The notes beneath the pieces were generated by a model that had not been told where the DNA came from, ran no database searches, and was given only the letters and a program-made list of their open reading frames with translations. Below are positions 61,672 to 64,000 of a stretch of 64,000 nt of DNA, one piece after another. A program made the translations under genes and the position numbers. Origin of the DNA: Deinococcales bacterium (GTDB lineage Bacteria; Deinococcota; Deinococci; Deinococcales; JAAFIG01); assembly GCA_025359505.1 (NCBI GenBank), contig JANYHH010000057.1, positions 62,001 to 126,000 on the forward strand. Direction: 5' to 3'. The number at the start of each line of letters is the position of its first letter. The first letter of the stretch is position 1.

Positions 61672-62169
61672 TTACCGAGTTCCAAAATGAGATAAGCGTC
61701 GAGCCAGTTGGGTCGCACGTCGTTGCACAGCTTTGTTCGGATCAGCCGCGAGTAAGTGGTAAACCGTTCTGACCTCATCAGGCGGAAGCCTGCGAGCTAA
61801 CCCATCCAACGCGCATAACCTGACGGCGGCAACAGGATCGAAAATCATTTGTTTAAGCAATGAAGTTTTTTCTTGCCTGAACCACAGTGCTTTTGTAAGT
61901 GGTAATCGAACCGCTGCATGAGGGTGAGCCGCTAGATGATCGAAGGCTTGCTCGAGGTGATCGCTATGTCTGTGCGAAGGAAGTTGCCACAACCGTCTCG
62001 CAAGCCAGCGCTTAACCCGTGGTTCAAATGAACCGACAGCAAGGTTAAAGATGACTTCATCATTGAGTTCATCTTCGTAGCGTTTTTTCCGAAGAAACTC
62101 TTGATTTTGCCACGTTGTCGGATTTCTCAATGCTTGGATAACGTCGGTGACTTTCCATTCTTTTCTCAA
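61672..62169 (-). CDS. hypothetical HEAT-repeat-like protein
   Basis: ORF overlapping leuA stop; helical repeats. Confidence 0.55.
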
Positions 62170-63728
62170 ATCGCCTGCATCGCTTCCTTCTTCACGCCGA
62201 CATTCGCTAAGCTTGCGTTAATCACCTCGAGCCACGCCCGCGCACTGGCTTCGACGATATCGGTGCTGACGCCGTTACCGCTGTAAATGATCTCGCCAAC
62301 TCGGGCGCGGATGCTGACCTCGCCCAGCGCCTCGCCGCCCTCGGTGACGGCTTCGATGCGGTAACTCTCCAAGCTCGGGAAGACTTGTGCCAGATGATTG
62401 ATCGCTTTATACGCCGCGTCGACCGGCCCGTCACCGCTCGAGGCGTGCTGCTGCGGGCCGGATGGCGTCGCCAAAGTCACGGTCGCCGTGGGGACAACGT
62501 GCGTGCCAGAGAGCACTTGGATGCTCTCGAGCTTGAAAACCTCGGGGATCGTGTGATCTCTGGTTTCCACGAGCGAGCGCAGCTCTTCCTTGCCCATCGC
62601 GCCTTTGCGATCGGCAATCTCCTTGAAGCGCGTGAACAGCGCACCGACGCTTTCTTCGGACAGCCCGTGATCGTTGCTGACGTTACTGAGGTCGTAGCCC
62701 ATCTCCTCGAGCGCTTTCTTGAACGCCGCTCGCCCGCTGTGCTTGCCGAGCACCAGCACGCCCGCCTCGCGCCCGACCATCTCGGCGTTCATGATCTCGT
62801 AGGTGGATTTATTCTTCAGCACGCCGTCTTGGTGAATCCCCGCCTCGTGCGCGAAGGCGTTATCCCCCACGACAGCCTTATTGGGCTGCACCGCCATGCC
62901 AGAATGCCTCGAGACCATCCGTGAGAGTCGGTAAATCTCGCGGGTGTTGATCTGCGTCGCGGCTTGGTAGTAATCCCCCCTTGTCGCCAAGGCCATCACG
63001 ACCTCCTCTAAGGACGTGTTGCCCGCCCGCTCGCCGATGCCATTGATCGTGCATTCGACTTGCGTCGCACCGTTCTCCACGGCTGCCAGCGAGTTGGCGA
63101 CCGCCATCCCCAGATCGTCGTGGCAATGCGTGCTGATGCTGACCTCGCGTCCGCGCACGACTTCATCGCGGATTCGCGCAATCAACCGGCCGTACTCGAG
63201 CGGCGTGCCGTACCCCGTCGTATCGGGGATGTTGATCGTCGTCGCGCCCGCGTCGATCGCCACGTTGAACAGTTGAATCACGAAATCAAAATCGGCCCGC
63301 ATCACGTCCTGAGCGCTGAACTCGACATCCCCGCAGAACGTGCGGGCGTACTTGACCATCTCTTCGCTGATCTCTAAAACCTGCGCCCGCGTTTTTTTGA
63401 GCATGAACTCGAGGTGGACATCACTGGCGCTGGTGAAGGTGTGAATCCGCCACTGATCCGCGATCTCGAGCGCCTTGGCTGCCCGCTCGATGTCTGTTTT
63501 GTGCGTGCGAGCCAGCCCGCAGATCACGGGGCCGCGCACCTCGCGGGCGATGCGGCCCACGCAATCGAAATCGCCTTGCGAGGTGATCGGAAAACCCGCC
63601 TCGATCACGTCCACACCCATTCGCGCCAGCCCGTGCGCGATCTCGAGCTTCTGCGGCACGCTCAGGGCCACACCGGGGCTTTGCTCGCCGTCGCGCAGGG
63701 TCGTGTCGAAAATTTTAATGTGCTTCAT
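62166..63728 (-). CDS. leuA: 2-isopropylmalate synthase
   Basis: [80 protein letters not shown]. Confidence 0.98.
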
Positions 63729-63823
63729 GGTGAACTCCTTTTTTCATCGCTCGAGGTGTAAACGGTGTGCGCGGTCAGCGGGACGGAAGAGGTAATCGCA
63801 TGAATGCTCCCTTGGAAGTCAAT

Positions 63824-63853
63824 AAAAAACCCTCGAGCGGCTAAACTCGAGGG
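63824..63853 (-). terminator. leuA attenuator terminator hairpin with CTCGAG stem
   Basis: minus strand CCCTCGAG-TTTAGCCG-CTCGAGGG-TTTTTT. Confidence 0.85.
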
Positions 63854-63871
63854 CAGCATGGCGAGAAACGA

Positions 63872-63928
63872 TTACGCCACGACCCTCGAGTGAACTAGGG
63901 CTAGGCTTAGCGCGGCGAAGTTGTACAT
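63872..63928 (-). CDS. leu leader peptide MYNFAALSLALVHSRVVA
   Basis: 18-codon ORF upstream of leuA; all three Leu codons are CTA; precedes terminator/antiterminator. Confidence 0.75.
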   Translation of the reverse strand: MYNFAALSLALVHSRVVA

Positions 63929-64000
63929 CTGCGAACAATCGTAACAGAGCTTGCAAAAGCCTGTCAAGCGGCTCGAGTTGAAAAGATCGGCGCGTGGCAA

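Follow-up and report, generated by a model that had tools for sequence, protein, structure and literature searches.

Leader-peptide attenuation was reportedly demonstrated in 2005 by Tsubouchi and colleagues for a lysine gene, that of homocitrate synthase, in Thermus thermophilus, which belongs to the same phylum as the bacterium considered here. In the Salmonella leu leader, replacement of CUA codons by CUG lowered sensitivity, according to the account of Carter 1986 given in PMC1183508. Actinobacterial ilvB genes are preceded by leader ORFs rich in branched-chain amino acid (BCAA) codons and by terminators (PMC1262725), and the ilvB1 attenuator of M. tuberculosis has experimental support (PMC13236596), while actinobacterial leuA carries the LEU element, a pseudoknot in which leucine codons pair with the Shine-Dalgarno site (PMC1262725). 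Leaderless cysteine attenuator ORFs have been described in mycobacteria (Canestrari 2020, as cited in PMC13236596), and -10 motifs adjoining ORFs are a common leaderless mode in the host's phylum (PMC12340547, a 2025 paper). In the literature we searched, a partial collection from which most subscription journals are absent, we found no relevant report of leu or ilv attenuation in Deinococcus or Thermus.

Here we describe a regulatory module upstream of leuA in a stretch of 64,000 nucleotides from a Deinococcales bacterium (the window): its parts, how far they are conserved, which of their pairings exclude one another, and the evidence that they are under selection. Taken together, sequence comparison and RNA folding make it highly probable that this module is a ribosome-mediated transcription attenuator for leucine, a switch of a known general type, and the leader with its hairpins very probably lets the bacterium make leucine only when leucine is short. 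That the same design recurs in relatives argues that the attenuator is real. The features of the window are as follows.

63967-63938, minus strand: sigma-70-like promoter, with TTGACA at 63967-63962, an 18-nt spacer and an extended -10 TACGAT at 63943-63938
63928-63872, minus strand: leader peptide ORF of 18 codons, MYNFAALSLALVHSRVVA followed by a stop
63896-63910, minus strand: putative regulatory codons CTA-AGC-CTA-GCC-CTA
63897-63911, minus strand: region 1, the CTA-codon segment predicted by RNAalifold to pair with the box (1:2 hairpin)
63875-63891, minus strand: region 2, ACTCGAGGGTCGTGGCG, the antiterminator 5' arm within the leader ORF
63845-63863, minus strand: region 3, the antiterminator 3' arm, which holds the terminator 5' arm CCCTCGAGT
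63854-63824, minus strand: intrinsic terminator (regions 3:4) with a T6 tail
63775-63801, minus strand: short ORF MRLPLPSR followed by a stop, between terminator and leuA, possibly a second small reading frame
62166-63728, minus strand: leuA, 2-isopropylmalate synthase, 520 aa (TIGR00973, 673 bits against a cut-off of 599; PF00682, PF08502)

Leader peptide, promoter and terminator

Re-reading of the minus strand confirmed all the coordinates of the original prediction, and its naming of the downstream gene as leuA agrees with a score above the TIGR00973 cut-off. All three leucine codons of the leader (63910-63908, 63904-63902 and 63898-63896) are CTA. The prediction had called this codon seemingly rare, as indeed it is: CTA makes up 2.5% of the 1718 leucine codons in 38 long ORFs of the window, so that three out of three would arise by chance with a probability of about 1.6e-5. 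Across five leuA leaders CTA accounts for 14 of the 15 leucine codons, the sole other being one TTG in genome G012, and across 35 leuA and ilvB leaders for 75 of 133, against 7.6 expected. The terminator, which reads CCCTCGAGT-TTAGCC-GCTCGAGGG-TTTTTT at 63853-63824, lies 18 bases past the leader ORF and ends 95 nt upstream of leuA. Between 63650 and 64000 there is one such terminator (0.3 in shuffles) and one such promoter (0.1 in shuffles).

The leader start codon falls 9 nt past the -10 element, with no obvious ribosome-binding site. In the 35 leaders compared, all of which have a perfect TTGACA, the start codon follows the -10 by 6-10 nt, which leaves no room for a Shine-Dalgarno sequence because transcription is expected to start only about 0-4 nt before the AUG or GUG. 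This spacing makes it probable that the window leader is translated from a leaderless mRNA; if so, the ribosome loads at the RNA 5' end without a Shine-Dalgarno site. A genome-wide search of the window's own genome (G000) for a -10 adjoining an ORF in this arrangement returned 14 places against 1 in a reversed control, and these 14 include the leuA and ilvB attenuators and a candidate leader before a homocitrate synthase gene.

Alternative pairings and the proposed switch

The original prediction held that a CTCGAGGG box inside the leader could pair with the first terminator arm as an antiterminator. This box (63890-63883) is part of region 2. Paired with its own arm, it reaches a calculated -29.8 kcal/mol in the window, a value that none of 31 arms from other groups matches; over the 35 leaders the mean is -23.7 kcal/mol for a box with its own arm and -18.4 kcal/mol for a box with other-group arms. 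RNAalifold, run on the alignment, returned the terminator together with a hairpin (1:2) that pairs the CTA codons with the box and whose predicted duplex energies range from -6.0 to -20.3 kcal/mol and are weakest in G012. The antiterminator (2:3) is missing from this output because it excludes both 1:2 and 3:4, and it was evaluated apart from RNAalifold by nascent-RNA folding, duplex energies and synonymous recoding. In the four family leuA leaders, only 3, 2, 18 and 0 of 2000 synonymous recodings equalled the real 2:3 pairing, which indicates that the leader RNA is constrained in its pairing beyond what the peptide demands, and the 2:3 pairing itself appears to be selected. In G012 the pairing is unexceptional (equalled by 305 of 2000 recodings), and several leaders of families f3 and f5 give a weak pairing signal. 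Covariation counts are small, as only five leuA leader sequences exist. The predicted 1:2 hairpin completes the classical four-region layout, and the locus combines every trait of a classical attenuator that was examined computationally: codon enrichment, a terminator, an excluding antiterminator inside the ORF and the 1:2 hairpin.

We infer the start site, the stalling, the termination and the leucine response of the following model. Transcription would start at about 63931, which puts the RNA 5' end only a few bases from the leader AUG; the ribosome would probably load at this near-leaderless end. When charged Leu-tRNA for CUA is ample, the ribosome would pass the three CUA codons quickly and reach the stop at 63874, where it would cover region 2, allowing region 3 to pair with region 4 into the terminator. 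When leucine is short, it would stall at the first or second CUA and open the 1:2 hairpin; region 2, now free, would pair with region 3 before region 4 is made, so that the terminator is blocked and leuA is transcribed. Without translation, the 1:2 hairpin may form and favour termination.

Nascent-RNA folding agrees with the earlier proposal that a stall at early CTA codons frees the box and that reading to the stop masks it. When a ribosome is placed on the first or second CTA and region 4 is yet to be made, all five leuA leaders take 2:3 as their minimum-energy fold; with the ribosome at the stop, or region 2 blocked, 3:4 alone remains. A ribosome on the third CTA hides part of region 2 and weakens 2:3; hence only stalls at the first two codons look fully effective. 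Even with a ribosome on the codon, the terminator persists in the full-length minimum-energy form of G001 and G012, and in that of G003 for the first CTA, so antitermination in these cases would need folding during transcription. The window RNA takes 2:3 as its minimum-energy form when no ribosome is present, which makes termination without translation uncertain here.

Conservation, sibling leaders and other readings

LeuA of the window is 85-89% identical to that of three other members of its family (G001, G002 and G003) and 69% to that of G012, from a second family; identity is 67-68% with Calidithermus and Meiothermus and 56% with Trueperaceae, values that point to the Deinococcus-Thermus group. 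The original prediction had staked itself on relatives keeping the leader ORF and the hairpins, and these are conserved in four genomes of two families: each of the three family relatives, and likewise G012, has ahead of leuA the same promoter, a leader with CTA codons, the box and the terminator. The CTAGCCCTA stretch is unchanged in the leaders of all four family members. The leaders of the relatives, each ending at a stop codon, are these.

G003, L114: leuA leader MKFVASLRLALPHSRVVA
G001, L115: leuA leader MKHISQILCLALITSRAVA
G002, L007: leuA leader MKSVVSLFLALNPSRVAA
G012, L008: leuA leader MNQNIRLLSTANSKGVLRR

Genes intervene between terminator and leuA in G001 (a UPF0150/HicA toxin-antitoxin-like pair, L115:6297-6772) and in G003 (a nucleotidyltransferase-domain gene, L114:7207-7629), with the attenuator still intact; from their position between attenuator and leuA, these genes are presumably under leucine control as well. 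Right before leuA, three relatives share a different conserved short ORF, RIxIHSERL (L114 near 7627, L115 near 6777 and L007 near 3060 on the minus strand), whose changes fall mostly at synonymous positions; MRLPLPSR occupies the same place in the window.

A clearly similar leader precedes ilvB in the same four family genomes, again with a stop after each peptide.

G000, L161, G000:C101 at about 138436-138477, on the strand of leuA and some 11 kb upstream of it: ilvB leader MKFQPAIVVVVTLISRVAA
G001: ilvB leader MKFFSAIILVVVVLVQPRVAA
G002: ilvB leader MKNAPIIVVVVALSKGVAA
G003: ilvB leader MKNASIIVVVVALSTGVAA

These leaders carry runs of Val and Ile codons, that of G000 being a Val/Leu leader, and their stems (CGAGGGTCGC or GGGGGTCGC) are not CTCGAG, yet are complementary to their own arms. 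Leaders before ilvB occur in the second family too (G008 and G004), and comparable ones in 24 of 26 further genomes from three more families, which makes them near-universal among the genomes of the order that were compared; the two outside this count are one locus at a contig end and one similar leader that was left out. In G000, a third leader, MFSAKKPSSEDASA followed by a stop, with AAA-AAA lysine codons and a terminator, stands before a homocitrate synthase gene (TIGR02146; L003:1016-1150, in G000:C91) and is, judging from these parts, a probable lysine attenuator. The ilvB sibling, the probable lysine leader, the 1:2 hairpin and the probable leaderless start all go beyond the original prediction.

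This evidence also bears on other readings of the locus. A same-strand gene does end upstream of the leader, and the hairpin could simply be its terminator, with the short ORF incidental; we consider this extremely unlikely, given that a strong promoter separates the hairpin from that gene, that the module is conserved while the relatives' upstream sequences differ, and that selection is seen on both leader codons and pairing. It is very improbable, too, that the leader ORF acts mainly on leuA translation, through coupling or the second small ORF, the terminator playing a minor part. The RIxIHSERL peptide that three relatives conserve immediately ahead of leuA would suit such a role, but the leader stop lies about 140 nt from leuA, whole genes separate the two in G001 and G003, and the conserved features all point to a terminator switch.

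Mutually exclusive hairpins by themselves leave the sensor unspecified, and attenuation might be real with a protein, a small molecule or a tRNA in place of the translating ribosome. Several observations leave this very little credence: in all five genomes the leader ORF is uninterrupted and its rare CTA codons are those of the pathway amino acid, the box lies immediately ahead of the stop codon, the ilvB sibling has its codons switched to Val/Ile runs, and neither the T-box model nor any other in Rfam holds up at the leuA site. Rfam, including T-box RF00230, gave no gathering hits in the window, and only unrelated chance hits at E<=10 within 63400-64000. Elsewhere in G000, T-box-like matches below the Rfam gathering score were seen at C99:2332-2532 and C26:20690-20966. 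We retain ribosome-mediated attenuation as the preferred reading.

The CTCGAG palindrome and comparison with known systems

The window holds 454 copies of CTCGAG, where dinucleotide shuffles predict 26; the presence of the motif alone is therefore uninformative, and the case for the attenuator rests on conservation and pairing. The arrangement CTCGAG-loop-CTCGAG-NN-TTTT is found once in the window and in none of 100 shuffles. The idea that the palindrome had been recruited as interchangeable regulatory stem parts holds locally, at leuA, but not generally, as the ilvB stems differ, CTCGAG pairs are spaced as chance would have it and one of the six terminators in the window uses the motif. As a general terminator stem CTCGAG was rejected, with 26 pairs at 3-12 nt spacing against 29.3 +/- 5.1 by chance. 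Loose CTCGAG-hairpin patterns are numerous in G001-G003, G012 and G016, few in G008 and absent from G004; the distribution suggests a lineage-specific expansion, like that of cyanobacterial HIP1.

On balance we lean slightly towards an evolutionary account in which one ancestral leaderless attenuator before ilvB controls BCAA synthesis throughout the order (by inference including Thermus, Meiothermus, Trueperaceae and their kin) and was duplicated to leuA in the lineage of the window, its specificity passing from Val/Ile/Leu to leucine alone and its stems being rebuilt from the abundant CTCGAG. With two siblings in one genome, tuned to different amino acids and each with stems that pair best with their own arms, nature has set up an experiment on how such a switch duplicates and diverges.

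Like leuL of E. coli and Salmonella, the window locus combines rare CUA leucine codons, alternative hairpins and an intrinsic terminator before leuA; it differs in that no Rfam match or sequence relation to leuL was seen, in being probably leaderless and in stems partly made of CTCGAG. The lysine attenuator of Thermus thermophilus senses lysine and differs in gene, peptide and stems, its candidate counterpart here being the MFSAKKPSSEDASA leader. A BCAA-rich leader ORF with a terminator is common to the window and to actinobacterial ilvB, whereas at leuA the Actinobacteria have a pseudoknot and the window a probable terminator switch, which would explain the site. Our findings extend BCAA leader-peptide attenuation to a deep bacterial lineage in which we found no such report and suggest that leaderless RNAs are involved. 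The mycobacterial cysteine ORFs resemble the window in being leaderless regulatory ORFs with codons for the amino acid of the pathway, whereas the window locus would sense leucine instead of cysteine and carries an intrinsic terminator in a 1:2/2:3/3:4 layout.
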